This document shows, piece by piece, positions 28,773 through 45,842 of a stretch of 64,000 bases of DNA. The notes under the pieces are model-generated. The model was not told where the DNA came from. It saw only the letters and a program-made list of their open reading frames with translations, and ran no database searches. How positions within the stretch are numbered: position 1 is the stretch's first letter; the number at the start of each line of letters is the position of its first letter. Where the stretch lies: contig NC_053046.1 of NCBI RefSeq assembly GCF_003473485.1, forward strand, positions 630,001 to 694,000, given 5' to 3'. The stretch is from Medicago truncatula (Eukaryota; Streptophyta; Magnoliopsida; Fabales; Fabaceae). The translations under genes were made by a program, and so were the position numbers.

Positions 28773-31700
28773 ATGGAGCAAGCACTTATCGGTGCACTAA
28801 ACCTCGTTTCTCGAGACTTACCTCTTCCTCCTGAACTCTTCAACACCGTTTCTTCTATCTGTTACGGATCTGACTCCAAACCTCTCTCTCTCAACGCTGA
28901 GGTATAATCAATCACTTTTTTCTTCACCTGCTTAATTCTCTTAATTTGCTTCTCTTATTCACTATTTTCTCATACATTTTTGTTTTCGTTGTTGTTTAGC
29001 AAGATGATGATAGTTTACTGACTGAGCTTCAAGATGCAATTTCCAAACAACGACCTAATTGTTCGTCTAGTTCGAAATTGAATAATGCTATGAAAGTTCG
29101 TACTCAAGCTCGGTTTCAGAATCGATTAACGCAGCTTGAAGGTAATTTAGTTTTGCTTTTTTTTATTACTTCCTTGTGTTGTGTGTTTTGCATTTCTATA
29201 TGATAATCTATGGAGCACTGACACATATGACACTGGTACGTCGATACTGATGGTAATTTAAGAAAATGACATAATTGAATGTAATCACATGCACGGACAT
29301 GTGTCTGACGGACACGTGTCTCTAGAGATTGTTTTTTTATTATTAATTGATTGGAAATGATTCTTAGTAGTGTTGTTGATTATTGTTTTTGAATAGGATT
29401 GCGTTGGAACTGGGGGGACAACCTACAGACGAAGTGCTTGCTCGAGCTTTATGGACTAAAGGTGAAATTGATTCTTGAATCTTTGTTCATTGTTTTCTGT
29501 CTTGTGAGTGGTGTGTATATTTGCTAAGTATGTGTTTGTTTTGGCGGTGGATGAATTGTTAACGCACGTTAACTTTGAAGCTGCATAATTTGTAGCTTTT
29601 ACGTTTTTGCTTTGAAATTCTATGACTTCGTGTGGTGGGAGTTGACAAATGGTCTACCAAACATGTGCTAAATTGGTTATCAGTTTATTTTTTTATTTTT
29701 TTTATGTAACGCATTTAATTTTCCCATGCTTGTCGTATGCGGATGAATATCATTTCCTTTATTGCTTTTCGTATATCGTGAAGAACGATTTCCCTTGATG
29801 AAACTATTATTTTTATTTCCATATCTGCCTGCTTGCATGTCAATTAAAACCGATAAATGACAAGAAACGTGTCCTTGTCGGCAAGGACTTTTTTTCTTGC
29901 AGCTAGCGGAGTTACAGGGGAAGGTTCGAACGGAAGTGAGCTCTGAATATTGGCTTAATGTTAACTGTGCATATCCCGACAAGCAATTGTTTGACTGGGG
30001 CATGATGCGGTTGCGGCGTCCTCCTTATGGAATTGGAGATCCATTTGCCATGGATGCTGATGATCAAATAAGGAAGAAACGGGATGCGGAGGTGATTTTC
30101 TATTTCACTGATTGGTGCCCCTCTCCCCCACTTGGTTTAAATCCAGTTTTTCATATTATGGATATTATTGGTTATAATTTGCATATATTGATGATGAGGC
30201 TCCGCTTCATTGATCCAAGGAGTAAATGAGAGTGAAATGAAATTTATTTGTAATGCATATCTCATGTAGAACTTCAATTGCAGAGACTATCTAGAATAGA
30301 AGAGCAAGCAAAAGGTCAGATAGAGACCAGAACAAGAAGATTTTTTGCTGAAATACTGAATGCTGTCCGTGAGTTCCAGTTACAAATCCAAGGTTCTTTG
30401 AAGAGGAGAAAACAGAGGAATGATGCTGTTCAGGTCCGCTATTTCTTCCACTATCTTTCATTTGTTACAAAACATGTATGTTTTTATGGGAAACTAAAAT
30501 GTACAGTTGGTATACAACTTTTTGGCCTATTACAAAGTACTTGTGAGCTACTCTTATGATAATTATATGTATTGGCAGGAACGTGTTCAGAGTTGGCATT
30601 TGTTTTCCATGATACTGGATATGCAAGAACAAGAACTTTGTTTATTTTCAAAATATGTTAATATGATAAAAATGTTTGAATTTGTTACTGTCTGTCTCTC
30701 TTGGGTTAACGTGAAAATTTCTAAGTTGTTTTTTATGTCAGATTTTCCCCTCTTTTTGGGTCAAAAGATCGTTTAAGTAACTTTGGCTTAATATGGATTA
30801 CAAATTCCTCATAAATAATATTGCAGGCATGGCATGGAAGGCAAAGACAACGTGCAACTCGGGCTGAGAAGCTGAGATTCCAAGCTTTAAAAGCTGATGA
30901 TCAGGAAGCTTACATGAGAATGGTGAAAGAGAGTAAGAATGAAAGATTAACGTTGCTTCTTGAAGAAACAAATAAACTGCTTGTAAATTTGGGAGCAGCG
31001 GTTCAACGTCAAAGAGACTCCAAACAATCAAATGGTATTGAACCCTTGGAAGATTCAGATGCTTTGAAGAATGGAATATCTAAGGAATCACCTCTTGAGG
31101 AAGATGAGGATTTGATGGATTCTGATCATAATGATGACAGTAGTGATTTACTTGAAGGTCAGCGGCAATACAATTCAACCATACATTCCATTCAAGAAAA
31201 GGTAGGTATCTGTGAATACTTTTTTATACTATTATAATTTTTTCATATATTGGAATTCTAACTAGCATAGGGTTTAGGGTAGCTCGTTGTAATTCAAACT
31301 AACTTGTAGTACATTGTAATTGTATATAGGTAACTGAGCAACCATCTATGCTTCAAGGTGGAGAATTAAGACCATACCAGATAGAAGGGCTCCAGTGGAT
31401 GCTTTCTTTGTTTAATAACAACTTAAATGGAATTTTGGCTGATGAAATGGGGCTTGGAAAGACAATACAAACCATTTCGTTGATAGCACATCTTATGGAA
31501 TACAAGGGTGTGACTGGCCCTTTTTTGATTGTGGCTCCAAAGGCTGTTCTGCCAAATTGGGTCAACGAGTTCGCAACATGGGCTCCTAGGTATGTCGAAG
31601 TTAGATATAGAATAGTAATTTCCTAATCTGTTCTCCTGTTTGGGAGAAGGTAATGGATTCTGCGCATCATATTCACTTTCTTAATCACTTGTGCATTTTC

Positions 31701-34700
31701 GTTATGATTCAGCATTACAGCTGTTTTATATGATGGACGAATGGATGAGAGGAAAGCAATAAAGGAAGAAATTTCAGGGGAGGGGAAGTTTAATGTTCTT
31801 TTAACACACTATGATCTTATAATGAGAGATAAAGCATTTCTGAAGAAAATCCATTGGAAATACTTGATTGTTGATGAAGGCCATCGATTGAAGAATCATG
31901 AGTGTGCTCTAGCAAGAACCCTGGACAACAGGTACGGCCAGTATTAGTGTTATGGTGATTTTATTATGTTTGTTAGTATTGGTGTTATACTGATGTTTTT
32001 GTTTGGGTATATTGAAGGAGGAAAGATAATGGAGAGTGATAAAAATTGGGGTGGGGCCACCCGAATTTTTTCTTTCCTCCTGTCATTTATTTGACATTTA
32101 TGCCACCCTCCATCTTCTCTGTTTCACAATCATTTCTCTCTCAGCCTCTCTCTCTCTCTGGACTATCTCTTTCTTCCTGGACCTTCTTTTCAGACCCCCT
32201 GAGACCTAGCTCACTACCTTCCTCCATTGCCCCACAATACATTGTATATCATGTACTGAAGTTTGGTCTAATACCCTAAACTCATCTCTGTTAAAGGAGC
32301 ATGGGTTGTTTAGGCTCACTGCAACCTCAACCAACCCCAAAACTAATTATGAGACCATGGCATATAGGATGGTTATTCAACCTGCGTATGTTTTTAGATA
32401 AATTGGTTAGTCAAAACGTAAGGGTCTGTTTGGTAAGACACCTCAATGAGCTTATAGCTTATAAGCTCGTCTGACAAAAAAAGCTCTGTTTGGTAATGCT
32501 TTTTCACCATGAGCTTATAGCTTATTTCACGAGCTTATAAGCTATTTTTCAGAAGCTATTCCAAGTAGCGTTTGAGCTTATAGCTTATCAAAATTTCTTC
32601 CATTTTTACCCTTAATATTTTATCTAAAATCCATTTTTATCCTTTATAATTTAACTAATAGATATAATCACCTTATAAATATCCATTGCCTTCCTTTGTT
32701 GTAATAATAGATACTATTATGTTTTTATGCAACTGCAATATACCTACATCATAATATATATATTTTTTTCATAAATAAAAATGATCATTGCCTTCCGTTT
32801 GAATAAAAAAATTCATGAATTACGTTATAATTTTTCATAAAAAGGGAAAAAAAAATTAGTGACGTTTAAATTCTTTTGGTTAGGCTTACATTATTTTTAT
32901 TAAAGGTGTTAGCCTTAAAATGTTTTTCATATATCATTTCACGTCTGTATTTTTTTGTCTAAATAATTTAAAACACTAGTTACAATAATCACATTTTTTA
33001 ATACAAATTCACTAAAATTCACATTTTTTACTACACTTAAATTCACTAAACTCGTTATATTTTATTTCCATACTTTTTTTTTTTTTGTTACGTCCAAATC
33101 TTTTACTCTTTATATTTTGTTTTCTCAGTAGATACTCTCTATATTTTTCTAAAGATAATGCATAAAAAATATATTAAATTAATAAATTATAAATACTTAA
33201 ATATTAATGAATATAAATTTTAATATGAAATAAGAATGTCCTTTTATGTCATTTTACATTTATAAGTCAGTTAAACCGCTAATTTTACAAACACTTCAAC
33301 TAGCTTATCAGCTATAAGTCGTCAGCTATAAGCTATCAGCTATCCGCTATAAGCTATTAGTCATCAGCTATCAGCTAGCTTATAAGCTATCCGCTGTTTT
33401 TACCAAACAGAGCCCAAGTGTTCTTAAATAACCTTATTAGAATTTTACTTGGAAGCATTTTTTGGGTCTGCTCATCACCTTCTAAAGCTGTTTACATCCA
33501 GCAATATCTATTGTTGAATTTCTTATAATTTTCATTAGATTATACTAACATCCATTAATCTAACTGCATTAGAATTTTGCAAAACAAAATTTACAAATTC
33601 TCCAATTCAATTATTTTGCAGCTATCACATTGAACGAAGACTTCTGTTGACCGGTACCCCAATTCAGAACAGCCTGCAGGAATTGTGGTCCCTGCTCAAT
33701 TTTCTCCTCCCAAACATTTTCAATTCAGTTCAAAATTTCGAGGACTGGTTTAATGCTCCCTTTGCAGATCGAGTTGATGTGTCCTTAACAGATGAAGAAC
33801 AATTATTGATTATTCGCCGTCTGCATCAGGTGAGTTTCTATCTTATTTTTTATTCTCCTTCTCTTATCAATGTCATTCTAATATAATAAACCATTCCCTC
33901 TTTTAGGTAATAAGGCCCTTCATACTACGAAGGAAAAAGGCTGAGGTAGAAAAGTTTCTTCCTGGTAAATCTCAGGTCATACTCAAATGTGACATGTCAG
34001 CCTGGCAGAAAGTATATTATCAACAAGTGACCGACGTGGGCAGAGTTGGGTTAGACTATGGTTTGTCTCAATTACCTTCCAGTTATCCCTTTACATACTC
34101 TTCTCTTAAAGTTCAACTCACAAAAATATATGCTTAACCTGAGTACTTTTTTATTTGAATATTGGCCTGCTTCTGCCAAAGGTTATTTGTTTATTCCCAT
34201 CCAACCCCATTCTATTTGGTTTTGGCTCTCAAAAGTCAAACTTCATTGTAGCTGTATAGAAATATATCAGTTCTGCCCATCTTTAGAAAGCAAATCAAAA
34301 TCTTTTTTTCCCATTCAGTTGGATATTAACTTGTTATTGATATGTTCTATGTTTGGAACAGATTTCCTTCTCTCTTTCGTAAAGAGAGAATTTTTTTCCT
34401 GGTGTTTTCCAACATTTTACTAGTTGTAACATTATGATAATTTAGTTAAATAAGATTCTTTGTTCAATAAAAATGTAATTTCTAATTTTGTCTTCCTTTC
34501 ATCCAAAGAACTAGTTTTCATTGGTATTATAACCATCCCAAAATATCTGTCTCTGTAATGTTGGTTTATACATCCTTATATGCTTACCTGATTTCTTGAC
34601 AACTTCAGTTACAAACTCTTAACTAAATAGAGAAAAATCTGTAGGTTCTGGAAAATCAAAAAGTCTACAGAACTTGACAATGCAACTCAGGAAGTGCTGT

Positions 34701-36717
34701 AACCATCCCTACCTCTTTGTGGGAAACTATGATATATATCGTAGGGAGGAGATCGTCAGAGCATCAGGGAAATTTGAACTTCTTGACCGCTTGCTTCCAA
34801 AACTCCGTAGAGCTGGTCATAGAGTCCTCCTTTTTTCACAAATGACTCGCCTCATGGACATTCTTGAGGTTTATCTTCAACTTCATGATTATAAATTTCT
34901 TAGACTTGATGGCTCAACAAAAACCGAGGAAAGAGGTTCCCTTCTAAAGAAATTCAATGCTCCTGACTCGCCATATTTTATGTTTCTTTTGAGCACTCGT
35001 GCCGGAGGTCTTGGTTTGAACTTGCAAACAGCAGATACTGTTATAATCTTTGACAGTGATTGGAACCCTCAAATGGATCAACAAGCTGAGGATCGAGCCC
35101 ATCGCATTGGGCAAAAAAAGGAAGTTAGAGTTTTTGTGTTAGTTAGTGTAGGATCCATTGAAGAGGTGATATTGGAACGTGCTAAACAAAAGATGGGAAT
35201 TGATGCCAAAGTCATCCAGGCTGGTCTTTTCAATACAACGTCAACAGGTTTGTTTTGCGTACTTTTGCAATGCCCAGAAAATATGTAAATGTTTTCAGTT
35301 TTTGGATGGTGGGGGAAATTGTTTCTTTGCATATTAAAAAGGAGATAAGTTTTCGTTTATTCACTACTTCAGACCTAGAGCCAGCATTATGCTTGTAAAT
35401 TGCTGCATATTCCATGTATAAACTTTGTCAAACAGCTCTTCTCTGACTTACAGAATGTGTCATGAGCCAAACTGCTACTAGGGCCATAAACAGATTACAT
35501 AAGTCATATCTCCAGTGTAATTTCAGGCCTTTTGATGCTTGATACTGACCCATAGTCATGAAATTTATGTCCTTATATACTGAACCCAGCTTGTTTTTAT
35601 GCACATAATCCTATATTTTATTATTTGAAAATATCATCCGATGCACGTCAATATTGTTTTTATAAGCAATATGTTAGTTGTTAGTATGTTAATAATCAAA
35701 GTTTGAATCCTGGCCCTTCTCAAACTCTTTCAGATGTCTCAGCTCAACTACTTGACGAGACATTCTTTATTGGAACGTTTACTTGTGTTTTCATCTCATC
35801 TTCTCATTTGAGTGATGTTCAAATAATTAGTTGGTGAAAGATGAATATTGCATTCTTAATTGCATTTTACCCCCTACCTGATTTTGAGCATTAGCAAAGA
35901 TGTTTGCGTTCAACTTTGAACATACCCTGCCGCCATATCAATCTTCCGTGTTTCACTTCCTAGATCTTGCTAAAAATTAACTATTTAAACGTTAATATAT
36001 GGTATTTCAATTTGTGCAGCCCAGGACAGAAGAGAAATGTTGGAGGAGATTATGCGTAGAGGTAGCAGCTCACTTGGAACAGATGTGCCAAGTGAGAGAG
36101 AAATTAACCGCCTTGCAGCCCGATCGGATGAGGAATTTTGGCTGTTCGAGAGAATGGACGAAGATAGAAGGCAAAAGGAGAACTACAGATCTCGTCTCAT
36201 GGACGAGAACGAACTGCCAGATTGGGTATACTCTGCACTAAATAAGGATGAAAAGGCCAAAGCTTTTGACAGCAGTGCTGTTACTGGAAAGCGGCCAAGA
36301 AAAGAAGTGGTATATGCAGATACGTTAAGCGATCTACAATGGATGAAGGCTGTGGAAAGCGGACATGATGTATCTAATTCTTCAGCTAAAGGAAAAAGAA
36401 AAATCCGCCTCCCTATTGACAGCCATGCACAAACAAGTGATGACACCGGGGCAGAAGAAAGGTTGTTAGAGTTAAGCAACACCATGGCAAATGAAAGATC
36501 AAATGAAGACACTTTTTATGGGACCCCTGCCTCTAAGAGGTTCAAGCATGAAGAAGTAAGTTCCCATAAACATGAAATCAAGGATACCGGTGTAAGTGGT
36601 TTGAACGAGCATGTGTTTTCTTGGAATACTATTAGAAAAAAGAGATCAAGCTATCCTAGCCAGGGTTCATTATCTGATACCAAAGGGCAGAGTTCAAATG
36701 GAAGAAGAGCAAGCTAA
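28773..36717 (+). CDS. CHR12: SNF2-family chromatin-remodelling ATPase (CHR12/CHR23, MINU type)
   Basis: Twelve exons join in frame to 1,063 residues (Arabidopsis CHR12 and CHR23 are about 1,100 and 1,060): 28773-28901, 29000-29141, 29397-29461, 29903-30091, 30284-30433, 30827-31201, 31330-31589, 31713-31931, 33622-33829, 33907-34060, 34645-35247, 36020-36717. Order: start [19 protein letters not shown], conserved DWGMMR, an HSA-like basic helix ([17 protein letters not shown]), SNF2 ATPase from about 360 with DEMGLGKT (388-395) and DEGH (491-494), helicase C with HRIGQ (783-787), then a SnAC-like segment ([14 protein letters not shown] to FERMDEDR) and a basic tail. There is no bromodomain, unlike BRM. 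In Arabidopsis these paralogues are nuclear SWI/SNF ATPases controlling stress-induced growth arrest and meristem maintenance. Which of the two paralogues this is cannot be told. Intron 8 holds a 1-kb transposon-like insert. Confidence 0.95.
32422..33415. mobile_element. Terminal-inverted-repeat element in remodeller intron 8
   Basis: Ends GGGTCTGTTTGGTAA and TTACCAAACAGAGCCC are inverted repeats. Subterminal AGCTTATAAGCT-type palindromes are dense at both ends. No transposase frame. Ends of the GGGNCTGTTTGG kind occur in hAT and PIF/Harbinger MITEs; no clear target duplication decides between them. Confidence 0.7.
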
Positions 36718-37233: not shown

Positions 37234-38223
37234 TCAAACAAGAAAAGAAGCTAAGCGTTTGATAAATTGTTTAGCCCCATCAGTTTCAGGTTTGAAGATC
37301 TGAAAACCATGTTCCTCATCTCCAGCTTCAAACAGTTCAAGTTGACCTTGCCACCCACTTTCTTTAACAGACTCATAGTACAAAACATCTCTGTCTCTAA
37401 ACTCATCCTTGTCAGTAATAGTTAGTAGTATTTTAGAACATCCAAGTGTAGCCAAACTAGGTGCACCAATAGCACAAGGATTAACCATAGGGTTATCAAT
37501 CCCACCCTTTGCATTAGGGTACACAAAGTTCCACACTTTAATAGCAAGGCTATTCTCATGTTCCTCCACAGGTTCTGACCCAATTGGCTTTGAACCCCAG
37601 AAAAAAGGACAACATAGTAATGCTCCCAATATTTTAAGATTGTTTGGTAATGTTTCAGTTCCAGCACGCATAGCTAAGTTATGAGCAAGGTTAGCACCGT
37701 TGACATCACCACCTATGTAAACTTTGTTGAAATCACCATAATCTTGTAACCATTGTTCTTTTTCTATGCTACTGTTGGGGTCATTGCTTGTGTGAGAAGC
37801 AACCCATTGGAGAGAAGTCCAACCATCTTCATACGCTGCAGGAAGAGGATGTTGTGGAAGAAGTCTGTAATCTATAGAAACAGCTATTATATTTGATTCA
37901 GAAACCAAGAGGTTGAGATATCGGTGGCAGAAAAAGGAGAAAGGGGATTCAACACAAAAAGCACCAGCATGAAAATAGAGTAAGATGGGAAATTTATGAT
38001 TGTGGTGAGATTTTGGAAGGAAAATGCGAGCGGAAAGGGAAGGGTTATTGTTGGAGATAACGATATCTTTGGATGAGACACCGGTTTGAGGGTCTTGAAG
38101 GGAAGGTGGGACTATTGAAGAACTCATTAGACGTTCTATGGTGCCATCTTTGTAGACACGGATAAGGGGTAGAAGCTCTTTTTCTATCTCTTTGTTGGTG
38201 TTGGAACAAGAATTCATTGACAT
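37234..38223 (-). CDS. HIDH-like carboxylesterase with substituted nucleophile
   Basis: Intronless, 329 residues, an alpha/beta-hydrolase of the plant CXE family. The start (ELLPLIRVYKDGTIERL), DPQTGVSSKDIVI and the end (EFRDRDVLYYESV, then GDEEHGFQIFKPET, then LASFLV) strongly resemble, from memory, soybean 2-hydroxyisoflavanone dehydratase, which makes isoflavones in the cytosol. Asp273 and His305 of the triad are present. The nucleophile motif, GDSSG in the plus-strand paralogues and Thr-containing in HIDH, reads GDVNG here, with Val174 (codon at 37,702-37,704). The oxyanion HGG is HAG (85-87). Classical esterase or dehydratase activity is therefore doubtful. I chose the ATG at 38,223 because it aligns with the paralogues and lies below a TATA box; an in-frame ATG at 38,313 would add 30 hydrophobic residues. 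The frame is fully open, so it is not an obvious pseudogene. Confidence 0.93.
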   Translation of the reverse strand: MSMNSCSNTNKEIEKELLPLIRVYKDGTIERLMSSSIVPPSLQDPQTGVSSKDIVISNNNPSLSARIFLPKSHHNHKFPILLYFHAGAFCVESPFSFFCHRYLNLLVSESNIIAVSIDYRLLPQHPLPAAYEDGWTSLQWVASHTSNDPNSSIEKEQWLQDYGDFNKVYIGGDVNGANLAHNLAMRAGTETLPNNLKILGALLCCPFFWGSKPIGSEPVEEHENSLAIKVWNFVYPNAKGGIDNPMVNPCAIGAPSLATLGCSKILLTITDKDEFRDRDVLYYESVKESGWQGQLELFEAGDEEHGFQIFKPETDGAKQFIKRLASFLV

Positions 38224-38281: not shown

Positions 38282-41069
38282 GTCAAAGATAAGATTATTA
38301 GATAAGGTTCCATCTAAATGGTTGGTGAAGAATGTGAAGATCAATATTGACAATACTCAAGTGGAACTGTAACAGTCAATATTTGAGGTTTTTTATTGTC
38401 TTTATCATAAAATATGGACATTCTTTTAAATTAAATTAATATAGTTTTCTTTTGTAAAGATGACATCAGTGAAAAAAAAATAATCTTCACTGAAAATTTT
38501 GAGAAACAAAAAATAGTGAAAAATTCATAAAATGCTAAGCAAAGAAGTTCAATCAATGACAAAAAAAAAAATTAAAAAAAAAAGTTTACAAATAAATTTC
38601 TCAAGTAATTGAAATGATAAAGGACATCTAATATAAGAATAAATACATATTTCAAGCCGTACAAACAAGGACTCTAATTAATTCAATATTCTATATTCAT
38701 TTGGCTGTATGTGATAAAAGGACCATGCATTTATTTATTTATTTTACTTCAAAAAATTTCCTGCACTCTGCTTAGTTGCTAATAAATCTTATTCATACAA
38801 AAAAAATCTCACTACACTAACTAAAGTCTAAAACACAAAATAAACCTCAGAATCAAATTCCAAAACAACACATCAATTAAATCAACAATCAATCAGAAAT
38901 CTAAACACTTCCACTCTGTTTAGTTTATGAGTAAAATAGAATTAAACGAATCCAGATTTATGATCGACGGCAGAAGCTAAGAAGCACACATATAGAATAT
39001 CATGACAAAAATGGAAACTGACCAAGTCAATGTGATAAATGCTAAGCAATTTAAGAAAAAAACAATAATCTCCAAAATGAGTACTAATTTTCCCACTAGA
39101 GAGCTTCTTTTACTAGTTCATATACCACAACCACTGTTGAGCTTGAAAAAACAAAATGTATCAAAGATAAAAGTATTTTAGGTAAACCAAATTCACATCG
39201 AAATGATAAGATTTAATGTGAGCATTTAGGAATAATTTTTACATCAGTGTCTATTTTGACTATAAAATTGTATTATTAAGGACTATATTAGAATTTCGAT
39301 GCATTGGGGTTTGGCCCTCTTTTATGTACCAAAAGAAGAAGAAAAAGAATTTTGATGCATTGACGAACTATTGTGACTACTCGTTATATATTCGGTGATT
39401 AAAATGACTACTACCATCCCTTTTTAAAACTTGTTGGTGTGACTAATTATTTAATGTCAAATTTATGTATGTGTCGTTGCAGAATAGGCACGGAGCATGA
39501 GAAATTGGGTTTTGAGTTTGATACTTTACGTCCAATCAAATACAAACAAATATCACATTTACTCAAAACTGTAAGACCTTTATATATAATAATTTGATAT
39601 TCATTTTTTCTTTACCAAAATTTGTGTCTTCCATATATATTATGTGTGTGAAAATTTGTACCTCAGCAAAGGATATCATTGGAGCCTGGTGGACAAATTT
39701 GTTATTTTGATTTCAACCAAGTTTTTTTCTATGGACTTGTACAAATCCAGTTCTTACAATTGTTTCTACTTTTTTTTATAACAGTTGTAGAAAGTGAAAT
39801 TTATTTTACGTTAATTACAATTAGAGTAATGGTTTACCATATTCGTTACCTTGAAAATCATTGCAATATTTATGATATACATATATTTTAAAGATTTAAA
39901 GCTTGTTCAATGATAAACTTGATGTAGCATCATGTCAATTGTTGTTCAATCTCACTCTTCTAGAATGGAATATATTAAAGAGAGGAGGTTCCATTTATCA
40001 AAGACAAATCAATTAATAACTAAGAAAATGCCCGTGATGAGGGAAAGGAAAAGAAATAGATATTCAAGTATGACCAGTGATGGTCTCTTTTTTCTGGTGG
40101 CATTATCATTCATTATGTGATTTAAGTGATGATAGTTTATCTTGGGATTCAGATATTCAAGTAGGGCCAGTGATGAAAGTTTTTCTGGTAGCTTTGGTTT
40201 CCTATTCATTTCCATTTATTGTCATCCCAAATGCCTGATTGGTCGGTTCTATCGTCGCCTAAACTTCCTTCCGCTTTGATCGCTCTTTCTTTGCCCATAA
40301 ATTGTTTTGCACAGCACTCAATAGGTATGTTATCGACATCGTATCATTTTTAGTTTTCTGCCAACACTGAGACTCACCATTTTTTGGTTTCTTTCAATGT
40401 TGGGACTCCACGGCTGAATATGGTGTAATTGTATAAAGCCTTCATGTTAGTAAGTAGTTAGTTTTCCTATCATATTTTCTCAAGTGTCCACACAACCCAT
40501 TTCTGTAGTATAAATGGAGTGTGTGAAAGAAAATCCATGAATGCAATAATTGAACTCAAACTTAGTATATGCTCAAATGAGCTGAAACTTGAAATTTTCT
40601 ACAACTCTTTCATTGATTGCAAAGTATTACCAGGGTTCTGTTGGATGGAGATCCACAGAATTTACTCTTTCTGATCTTTGAGCAAGCTTTCGCTGATCAA
40701 ATTACATACACACCATGGCTCAGAAACCAAGAGAGAATCCACTCTCTAACTCTCAAATGAGAAACTCAAGTTTTTTTTCAATGAGGTAAGGGATGATGTA
40801 AGTGACCTTGAGCCTATGAATACTAGGGGTGGTGCAATTAATAGGTTCTATGAATTTCTTGATCTGCATCACACCAACGCATCAGTTTAATCCACAAAAA
40901 ATCTAAACACTTGCACCGACTAAAACAAAATATATCAAAAACAAAATGCATAAAAGTACCCTAAGGACTGCATTGTTAAGTCTTTTATACTAGATCATCT
41001 TCCACTAAAAGTACACTAAGATAAAAGTATTCAATCACCACCAACTCCCATGAACAGAGTTATGCCAAA
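38282..41069. other. Intergenic, no gene recognised
   Basis: AT-rich DNA with only short broken frames. I see no structured repeat or RNA gene; the text around 40,600-40,800 looks slightly more gene-like but gives no recognisable protein. Confidence 0.5.
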
Positions 41070-43624
41070 TCACTCAGTCTCCAGCTCACCAACAATTTCA
41101 CTGCCAATAGTAGGTCCATCCTCACCCATGACAACATGACTCTGATACATTTAGTCCAGCTCCTTTCTCTTGAGCTCAATATCTTCAATATCTTCAAAGT
41201 GGCAATTCTCTAGGCATGCATTCAACAGCCAAATTGATCTCACTTTCAATTTCTTCCTTTGCATTAACTGACAGCTCAGGATTAATTGTTTGCTTCATGG
41301 CAGTGGCATATTCAATAAGCTCATTTGCTGCCTCCTTATTCTTCTGGTGTTTCTCATCATCAGATTTGTACTTAGCAGCTTGGTTAATCATCTTCTCGAT
41401 CTCCTCTTCAGAAAATCTTCCCTTGAAATTTTCAATGGTAATTTTGTTGCTTGTTCCAGAAGAGCTCTCTGTTGCAGAAATAGTTAAGGCACCATCTGAA
41501 CTTATATCGAAGCCAAGAGTGATAGTGGGAACACCACATTTAGCAGGAGGAATGCCAAGGAGTTCTAATTCTCCTAGTTTAGTGTTTCTGTTAACACTTT
41601 GTTCATCTCCTTCATAGATCAACAAACACATTTCATTTTGATTATCTTGAACCGTTGTGATATTCTTCGCTTCCTTGGAGATAGGAAGAGGACTGCACCT
41701 AGGAACCACAACAGCCATCCCACAACAGCCATCATGTCTTTCATTAACCTTCCACTGTTTTCGTCTTTTATGAAAGTATTATAACCAAGGTTGAGCGAGG
41801 TTACCTCATTCAAATACGCAGTTGGAACATTCTGATCACCATTTAATACTGCAGCATAGTATACAGCACCATGTGCTACGGCCACATCGGGGTAAATGGT
41901 CTTCAAAATCTGCTTGCCTTTAAATAATTTCGTCAAAAGTGATTCAATCTTTGGGATCCTGGTTGACCCACCAACAAGTACAATGTCGTCGACCTCCTTG
42001 ATATTTGTCTTGGCATAGGTCAAACATTTCTCAATAGTTTTCATACAGTCAGCGAAGTGGACAGAATTAATCCTTTCAAACTGATCACGGGAGATGGAAG
42101 TTTGTAAATCAATACTGTTGCGAATTCGATGAAAATCACACCAATAACAAATTTGATGTGTGGAGCAAGGAATAATCAGGCAACCAAAACAAAGTGTACG
42201 GAACAATAATAAACATAAGCCAAAAGTAGAAAACAGCAAGAGAAAAGAAGAGAGAACACAAAAGAATTTGTTGACCCAGTTCGGTCCAAATTGACCTAGT
42301 CTGGGGAGAGCAGCCATCCGTTTCACTATATGATGAGTAACGTTACAAAAGAGATATCAATGGGTTACAAGAATAAGTCTCCCGCCTAATTCTACCCAAA
42401 GTCCCAGCCTCTTCCCGTAACCAAGAGACTCGATCCTAATAGTGTTTCTCAAGGTGAATCAACCCTCAAACCCTAGTGTTTGTTCCAAATAGACAAACTC
42501 TATACAAACCCTAGTTTTGTTGAAGGGTGAAGGTTTGTTACCGATCACCATGTCACGAGCGGAGAAGACCGAGATGGTGGACAAGGTCAGGAGTGCCATT
42601 GTCTTGTGCCTCGGGGATAAAGTTTTGAGAGAAGTAGCAAAGGAACCAACCGCGACATCGATGTGGTCAAAGTTCGAATATTTGTATATGACAAAGTCTT
42701 TGGCTCATCGGCAAGTCCTAAAGCAACAACTTTACTCATTCAAGATGGTAAAGTCAAAGGCCATCATGGACCTACTTGTAGAGTTCAACAAAATCATTGG
42801 TGATTTGGAGAATATTGAGGCGCGTCTTGGGGATGCGGGTGCTCTGATGGTGTGGTGTTGTTTGGAGGATGAAGAAGGTGATGTGTCTCACCTTGGGAGT
42901 GATGCCTAGTGGAGCGGTGGTCGTCTGGAGAGACGTTAAACACTCACCATCAGCCTAGAGAGGCGGTCGTAAGAATAATCATGATCAGTCTGGAGAGGCG
43001 GAGGCAACAATACTCATGATCTACCTGTTGAGATGGAGTTTCAAGATTGAAGACATAGTGGGATGTACGCATTTTCTAGTTTAGGTAGAGTACGCTCAGC
43101 GTGAGGTGGAGTTGAACACACTGGTAATGGTACGACTATGAAGGACCTTGGGTGCTTTGCTCTATGATGAGCAAGGGATTTCTTCATGAAGACGGAAGGC
43201 ATTTCGGAGGTTGAAGAATGTATAGCACGGCTTGCGGGATTACCCTAAAAAAAAGGCCAAGGGTGATTGGATGCAAGGAGACCTTCAAGGAAGCGGGAGA
43301 TGTCCTGTGTTGAAGATGTTATGGTGAATGTTTGTGGAACTACCTAAAACTCCTAGTGTAGTTGGACTACAAGGACTCTTCGAGAAGACGGAAGACGTTC
43401 CGATGGCTGAAGAGGTTAAGGTGAATGCTTGTGGAACTACCTAAAATTCCTAGTGTAGTTGGACTGCAAGGACCTTCGAGAAGGCGGAAGACATTCCGAT
43501 GGTTGAAGGGGTTAAGGTGTAAACTTGTGGAGCTACTTGGTGTAGTGGGAAGCAATGGAAAGAGCAGCAATGGTGGTTGATGTTAAATTGGCATCATCCC
43601 TGATTTGAAGTCAAGGTGGAGAAT

Positions 43625-45198
43625 TGTGAGAGTTAACTTAAAATCAGGTTCTGCAGAAATCGTGGCACGATGGCTAGGCAACGTGGCACGATTGGAGGTT
43701 TCAGTTTGAGGCAAGTCACTGGAAAAATCGTGGCACGATGGTGCGCTGGCAGCGAATAACGTCGTGCCACAATGCGACCTCATCGTGCCACGATTTTTCC
43801 AGTGACTTGCCTCAAACTGAAACCTCCAATCGTGCCACGTTTGTAACACCCCGTTTTCCTAACTTGAAAATTTTTACATAATAATCAGAGTAATCAACTT
43901 AAACAGGATGTCACACTACTTTAAAAGATAAATAGAGTAGAATTACTATTTATTTAAACATTTTTCATCAATAATTCAAATTACATCGCAGCGGAAAAAC
44001 TTGTCATTAGACAACTTCAACAACTTAGACAACTTGCAGCTTAACGATATTAACACAACAACAGTAACAACGACTTTGCATCATAATACCATAATTCATC
44101 AATTATAAACAACATCATGTAACATCATATTTATCAACATATACCTTCATATAATACTTCATCAATCATGAACAACAACATACAACATCATATTCATCAA
44201 CATTTATATACATCAAAAGAGACTCAAAACCATATCAAACTTGAACCAAAACATCATTTCAACAAAAATCACCATTTGACGCATTTTTCATAAAAGTTCT
44301 CAAGAACAACAAAAGTTCACTTCAAGCTCTATGGTTAAGATTACCCAAGGTTTCAATCATCAAAAACAATATCTCATAACAAAAACAACAACAATCAGAA
44401 GTTAATTCATCAACAACATTATACTTCATCAATTTTGAGCAAAAACACAAGTATACATATATACATAACTTGAGCATATAAATTCATCATCAACAACTTA
44501 ATTAACATCAAATTCACATATCCAAACATTGCATCAAAACATAAGCACAAATCTCACCAATTAAATCCACAATAATCACTTTATACAAATAGGCACTTAT
44601 GGGTAGAAGTAGAAAAAGAGATTATACAAAAGATTATGAATGAAATCTAACCCAAATTTCTATAACATCAAAACTAACAACAACTACAAGGTTAAACCTT
44701 TTTCAGAATTATACAACCCCTTATTAGAGAAAGCTAGTCCCCCCTTACCTTAGGTTAGATGATCGCAAGGTTCTACCGCTTTCTCTTCTCCGACTCTTCT
44801 CTTCTCTTGGTTTCTTCCTTTTCTCCCAAAAACTGTTTTCACGTATTCTGTTTCTCTATTCCTAACCTCTCTTTTTATAAGTCTAACATATTCTCCCTTA
44901 TTCCAAATCTGCCCATCACATCTCAATATTCTATATATATATATATATAATATTTCTATAACAAATATATTTCTACACCAAATAACAAATATATTTCTAC
45001 ACCAAATAACATATATATTTTACTAATAAATACCAACATATAACATAACAAAATATCACTCATCAAAATAAATCGACTAAATTATAAAAAGACATCTAAA
45101 CTCAATAAAATAAATAAATAATAAAATAGGACGTCACAACGTTGCCTAGCCATCATACCACGATTTCTGCAGAACCTGATTTTAAGTTAACTCTCACA
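43625..45198. repeat. Palindromic right terminus of the copia relic
   Basis: Ignoring the nested solo LTR, the last 272 bp of the relic form one large hairpin. TGTGAGAGTTAACTTAAAAT at 43,625 is mirrored by its complement at 45,198, and the arms (about 115 bp each) include ATCGTGGCACGAT several times. The loop is about 40 bp. Confidence 0.85.
43842..45138 (-). mobile_element. Solo LTR nested in the copia relic
   Basis: A 1,297-bp block runs from TGTAACACCCCGTTTTCC to GGACGTCACA and is flanked by a perfect 5-bp duplication, ACGTT (43,837-43,841 and 45,139-45,143). No gene or primer-binding site is present. Read on the minus strand it starts TGTGACGTCC, which suits LTRs of Ty3/gypsy elements. 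It is a fossil, younger than the element it sits in. Confidence 0.85.
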
Positions 45199-45842
45199 GA
45201 TACCATTGCATAAAGTGTCAAGATGAATCTCAGCTTTCTCAGCTGTTGAAAGAATTATTTTGGCCTCTTCGCAGACTGTTTTCACCCTCCTGATAACCTT
45301 GAGACTTACATTAAGATCACACTTTATGTTCTTGTTCCTTAATTCTTTGATTAAGTGATTCACCATTGTGTTGGTAAAATCTTGACCGCCAAGATGTTGA
45401 TTGCCATAAGTGGATTTCACAGTAAAAGAATTGACATCCATAGAAACGAGGGAAACGTCAAGTGTCCCACCGCCTAGGTCGACAACCAGAACATTTTTCA
45501 CCGAGATAAATTTGTGTTTCAGACCATAAGTCATAGCAGCAGCGGTATCTTTCATCCTTGTGATAACCATGGCAGAGATTTCTTCGGGATATAATTTCTT
45601 CATTTCCCCCATATAGTTCACCGCAATCATGGCCTTATCATCTTCAGGAACAATCTCAAATGGCCAATGGAAAATATATTTTTTTACGAAAGAATCAGAG
45701 AATCGCATACCAACCAGACGCTTAGCATCTGCACAGGACATTTATAATTAATTATAACAAAAAAGCTTCGATGCCATAAATATTGAACATAAATAAACGT
45801 TTCAAATAATGTCATTTACTACAAATGTTATTACATTGAAAT

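Follow-up and report, generated by a model that had tools for sequence, protein, structure and literature searches.

The window, a stretch of 64,000 nucleotides of the Medicago truncatula genome (G000:C5:630001-694000), carries at 37234–38223 on the minus strand a coding sequence that its open frame, its identity to the kudzu enzyme and its place in the tree mark as that of an HIDH-type carboxylesterase-like protein without a nucleophile. The first-pass annotation had the position right; the strand is in fact minus, and the plus strand there is rich in stop codons. Translated from the minus strand, the gene is a single exon running from an ATG at 38223 to a stop codon ending at 37234, and encodes 329 residues in a frame that is uninterrupted over the 329 codons originally claimed for it. 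An upstream in-frame ATG at 38313 would yield a protein of 359 residues; we favour the start at 38223 because a TATATTA stretch, read by eye, lies between the two ATGs.

Two further HID-like carboxylesterases are found in the window, both on the plus strand. L003 (56586–57593) has all three triad residues, Ser, Asp and His, and its oxyanion motif is YGG in place of HGG, the His to Tyr change falling in a column that is invariant among the 15 other sequences compared. L006 (46831–47823), in the same 20 kb stretch, has ordinary GDSSG and HGG motifs. Frames at 41194–42326 and 45187–45741 on the minus strand resemble by eye pieces of an HSP70, which we take to be perhaps a broken copy lying between the carboxylesterases. 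On the plus strand, frames from about 29900 to 36717 resemble, again by eye, exons of an SNF2-type chromatin ATPase; some 500 bases separate their end from the 3′ end of the nucleophile-less gene (the window gene in what follows), with which they are convergent.

The translation of the window gene contains the motifs FHAGAF, CVES, GDVNG, KDEF and EEHG. The nucleophile elbow, GDVNG (residues 172–176; 37696–37710, minus strand), aligns with GETSG of kudzu 2-hydroxyisoflavanone dehydratase (2-HID) and has Val at position 174 (codon GTC, 37704–37702) and Asn at position 175 (AAC, 37701–37699). The oxyanion motif (residues 85–87; 37963–37971, minus) is HAG where kudzu 2-HID has HGG, with Ala86 encoded by GCT. 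Asp273 (37405–37407, minus) and His305 (37309–37311, minus) of the triad are kept, as read from the codons and the alignment, and Glu92 (37948–37950, minus) aligns with kudzu Glu89; the available text of PMC9663428 proposes this Glu as the catalytic acid and the triad His as the base in dehydration. Val174, the HAG motif and the survival of Asp273 and His305 had all been reported from the first reading of the DNA and are confirmed here, while the replacement of the Ser that follows the nucleophile in kudzu 2-HID by Asn175 had gone unmentioned.

The genetic code places Val two base changes away from Thr or Ser, and Asn at least one away from Ser; the Val-Asn elbow therefore differs from Thr-Ser or Ser-Ser by at least three bases in six. 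A single base-call error is ruled out, because three changes within six bases would be required. The sequence is known from one assembly, which leaves a broader error of sequencing or assembly at the elbow to be considered, but such an error would have to comprise these three or more differences and one more elsewhere (Gly to Ala), all in a frame that is otherwise open, and we consider it extremely improbable.

The protein belongs to the Pfam family Abhydrolase_3 (3e-37), of the alpha/beta hydrolase fold, and its best sequence match among solved structures is kudzu 2-HID (8ea1, 1.5e-159). The close kinship with HID that had earlier been put in terms of the soybean sequence thus holds with the kudzu enzyme in its place, the identity being 72.0% over 318 residues; this comparison covered 29 of 30 loci, L030 having yielded no frame once the motif filter was applied. 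A tree of 20 rows, built without the three columns in question, contains 19 of the 30 loci plus kudzu, as does the residue table (L020–L030, distant or incomplete, were omitted). In it the window gene and kudzu 2-HID are sisters with support of 100/99 and L002 joins them next (91/94); the pairing of L002 with either of them is rejected (p-AU 0.001 and 0.003). From this sisterhood we take the window gene to be the HIDH-type gene of the plant. No second HIDH-type copy was found, since the nearest to the window protein of the 48 other genome matches, L002, is only 58% identical. With kudzu 2-HID (PDB 8ea1/8ea2; HIDH type, as in soybean) the window protein has in common the acid, Asp and His (kudzu Glu89, Asp269 and His301; here Glu92, Asp273 and His305) and the pocket residues S31, L222 and F306, that is, three of the four that characterise HIDH, the fourth, A302, being Gly. 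It differs from the kudzu enzyme by this A302G, by G83A and by T168V and S169N, so that both the Thr nucleophile of the HIDH type and the adjacent Ser are absent.

The four pocket residues distinguish the HIDH type (Ser31, Leu222, Ala302, Phe306) from the HIDM of licorice, Glycyrrhiza echinata, which has Gly, Ser, Cys and Tyr at these positions (available text of PMC9663428). L002, on contig C1 and 60.7% identical to kudzu 2-HID, carries G31, S222, C302 and Y306 and is the sole locus with all four among the 19 in the residue table, whereas the window protein, with Ser, Leu, Gly and Phe, has none of them. L002 also keeps Thr168, Ser169, Glu89, Asp269, His301 and HGG (kudzu numbering). Counting the window gene, 14 of the 19 loci have the counterpart of Glu89, which is not peculiar to HID in this genome. 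We infer that L002 is a putative orthologue of the licorice HIDM, in the same subfamily as the window protein, and probably a working HIDM. Because kudzu 2-HID and L002 agree at positions 83, 168 and 169, where the window protein has Ala, Val and Asn, the three changes are derived in the lineage of the window gene. The two genes thus form a pair in which the HIDH-type copy has lost its nucleophile and the adjacent Ser and the HIDM-type copy is apparently intact.

The genome search, over 430 Mb in 42 contigs, gave 49 matches, of which 41 were read and the eight weakest left out. Of the 41 loci read, 38 have Ser at the nucleophile site; L002 has Thr, L037 has Gly, and the window gene alone has Val. 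L037 (C8:13368024) has a shorter frame in which the nucleophile site reads GCGCG and the oxyanion motif HNG, and is possibly broken or misaligned. In L008 (C7:24303391) and L009 (C1:50970382), which are close mutual relatives, the Asp before the nucleophile is replaced by Pro (GPSSG) and Ala (GASAG), respectively. The signature of class I plant carboxylesterases, a Ser nucleophile with HGG, is lacking in the window protein, which has GDVNG and HAGA. Collections of prokaryote and virus contigs gave 50 and 23 pattern matches, none encoding a relative, as is expected for such collections.

Mutants of the characterised enzymes indicate what the changes at the elbow may mean for catalysis. In kudzu 2-HID, T168A leaves 3% of the esterase and 1% of the dehydration activity, S169A leaves 52% and 0%, E89A leaves 23% of the esterase activity and no dehydration, and H301A abolishes dehydration; soybean T164A and T164S keep 1–3% of the esterase activity (all from the available text of PMC9663428). 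A review, in the part available to us, describes both activities of GmHID as depending importantly on the oxyanion hole and the triad (PMC8216759). By analogy with kudzu T168A and the two soybean mutants, it is very likely that the window protein is esterase-dead, as the first-pass annotation supposed, and we make this a firm prediction. That it is also a poor or dead dehydratase is likely, but we predict this less firmly, since the residues proposed as base and acid survive and Asn, rather than Ala, follows the nucleophile site.

An AlphaFold2 model of the window protein, made from 18 sequences (the protein itself and those of 17 loci, L014 being omitted as its start is unclear), has a mean pLDDT of 91.6. 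Among PDB structures it matches 8ea1 best, at 1.3 Å and 70% identity. Residues 1–8 are modelled with low confidence and the first structural element is a strand at 13–17. We defined 26 pocket positions by our interpretation of the ranges and residues in section 11 of PMC9663428, as far as available; seven of them (27%) differ between the window protein and kudzu 2-HID (L30M, G83A, T168V, S169N, M224I, A302G and L305I), as do 84 of the 293 other positions (29%). The pocket of L002 differs from that of kudzu at 10 of the 26 positions. Special conservation of the pocket was thus not found in this comparison of pocket with other positions, and the pocket of the window protein is near that of HIDH yet not specially guarded.

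The gibberellin receptor GID1 had been offered as a known case of this fold turned into a receptor by loss of catalytic residues. GID1 receptors do have in common with the window protein the carboxylesterase fold and a broken triad, and their structures are 24–26% identical to the window protein model. According to the available text of PMC9663428 and PMC10873640, however, GID1 keeps Ser and has Val or Ile in place of His, and two N-terminal helices lie over its pocket entrance. It is therefore the opposite residue that is lost, the window protein keeping His and Asp and losing the nucleophile, and the helices have no counterpart in the window protein's model. On these two grounds a GID1-like receptor was rejected as a homologous case, and GID1 is a weak analogy for the window protein. 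The GID1 residue pattern itself occurs at three loci of the genome, L031, L040 and L041, which have GDSSG with Ile in two cases and Val in one.

Closer precedents are the HID-like proteins of the Apocynaceae. The cyclases CS, TS and CorS have HGAG and lack the catalytic His, and the proteins of clade 1b are without both Ser and His and did not turn over the substrates tested (available text of PMC10873640). These are HID relatives in which ester hydrolysis has been lost, and clade 1b, like the window protein, is without a nucleophile. The resemblance is not complete. The Gly to Ala change in the oxyanion motif of the cyclases falls one position later (HGAG) than in the HAG of the window protein, and the Apocynaceae proteins lose His also or instead, whereas the window protein keeps His and Asp. 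The signature of the cyclases, Tyr or Phe for the catalytic His together with HGAG, is correspondingly absent from it (His305, HAGA). HID relatives without a nucleophile are thus already known, in the Apocynaceae (PMC10873640, as available).

Several measures bear on whether the window gene has been decaying. In relative-rate counts with 18 outgroups, more private changes fall in the kudzu enzyme with 13 and in the window gene with five (L002, L012, L016, L017 and L019), and the sole p value below 0.05 (0.04, uncorrected; outgroup L006) has kudzu as the faster. With L002 as outgroup, the window gene has 33 changes against 26 in kudzu (ratio 1.27, 95% interval 0.74–2.21); at sites where another locus supports L002 the numbers are 22 and 24 (0.92, 0.49–1.71). 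The end branch of the window gene in the tree has a length of 0.148, that of kudzu 0.214. A codon model on the topology of the tree (11 loci, 310 codons), fitted with a purpose-written script without a simulation check, gives an omega of 0.35 on the window gene branch against 0.26 elsewhere (p 0.29) and rejects an omega of 1 on that branch (p 0.0009). The rate and omega results average in the time before the nucleophile was lost; with an omega of 0.26, the neutral part of the lineage could amount to 25% to 43%, as set by the upper limits from both counts. They speak against a long period of neutrality, and an old pseudogene is ruled out by the open frame, the lack of acceleration relative to kudzu and the rejection of an omega of 1. 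The results are equally compatible with a rather recent loss and with a maintained new role.

The reading that we put forward, with about an even chance of its being correct, is that the window gene is the plant's HIDH-type 2-hydroxyisoflavanone dehydratase gene, inactivated at its catalytic centre. Comparison with kudzu 2-HID and L002 has Thr-Ser becoming Val-Asn and HGG becoming HAG in its lineage. To judge from the kudzu and soybean mutants, the loss of the Thr hydroxyl would prevent formation of an acyl-enzyme, and with it ester hydrolysis; without Thr168 and Ser169 the substrate would not be held for elimination by His301 and Glu89, and dehydration would be lost or very weak. The loss would be tolerated because L002, of the Thr type and with the 4′-methoxy-specific pocket of HIDM, could supply the dehydration step toward formononetin and medicarpin. 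The window protein is predicted still to fold and is without visible decay. Among the aglycones of M. truncatula roots, formononetin is described as the most abundant; in these roots the 4′-hydroxy isoflavone daidzein is also present (available text of PMC9301243). The daidzein must arise by some means, which could be L002, a non-enzymatic route or a window protein that still dehydrates. In the open-access literature, surveyed by titles and the starts of abstracts and so with subscription papers mostly outside its scope, we found nothing on the window gene or on a nucleophile-less legume HID; the available parts of PMC4533520, PMC5066740 and PMC10625430 mention 2HID in Medicago with no gene identifier, and those of PMC7357106, PMC4663792 and PMC11231381 hold nothing decisive on the window gene.

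Against inactivation stand the open frame, the absence of excess changes relative to kudzu, the rejected omega of 1 and the retention of the proposed base and acid; the three changes in the catalytic core could equally be taken for remodelling or for decay. It is possible, if tentative, that the nucleophile was given up while acid, base and fold were kept under selection, the product being either a dedicated dehydratase with Asn for Thr-Ser or a pseudoenzyme that binds isoflavonoids. The pseudoenzyme, maintained for binding an isoflavonoid or another ligand, is the first-pass idea freed of its dependence on GID1. The confidently predicted fold, at 1.3 Å from 8ea1, the omega below 1 without acceleration over kudzu, and the existence of relatives with broken triads, GID1 receptors and Apocynaceae clade 1b without Ser and His among them (PMC10873640, as available), would all be consistent with it, but the pocket is no better kept than the rest and the model has no GID1-like N-terminal helices. 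Ligand binding is a possible role but one that the results do not support, an intact Thr-type copy with HIDM residues gives a simpler account, and we think the pseudoenzyme rather unlikely. The dehydratase, freed of esterase activity, would rely on His305 as base and Glu92 as acid, with Asn175 replacing the hydrogen bonding of Thr and Ser; isoflavones would still be made, perhaps 4′-hydroxy ones such as daidzein, and esters no longer hydrolysed. The retention of Glu92, Asp273 and His305 and of S31, L222 and F306 of the HIDH pocket, the presence of daidzein in the roots and the unaccelerated rate all fit, and the available text of PMC9663428 shows through E89A that the two activities are separable. 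The same source reports that T168A and S169A each all but abolish dehydration in the kudzu enzyme, however, and both sites are changed in the window protein, as are A302 and G83; we hold this version to be unlikely.

Labelling the window gene a working HIDH from its identity to the kudzu enzyme would be misleading, also for pathway engineering. Should the nucleophile have been given up under selection, the gene would represent an exit from esterase chemistry in this fold in which only the nucleophile was lost and His kept, the mirror image of GID1. The pair of an apparently intact HIDM-type gene and a nucleophile-less HIDH-type gene makes it testable whether the plant's isoflavones may be made via the 4′-methoxy type alone, and whether dehydration requires the old esterase nucleophile at all.
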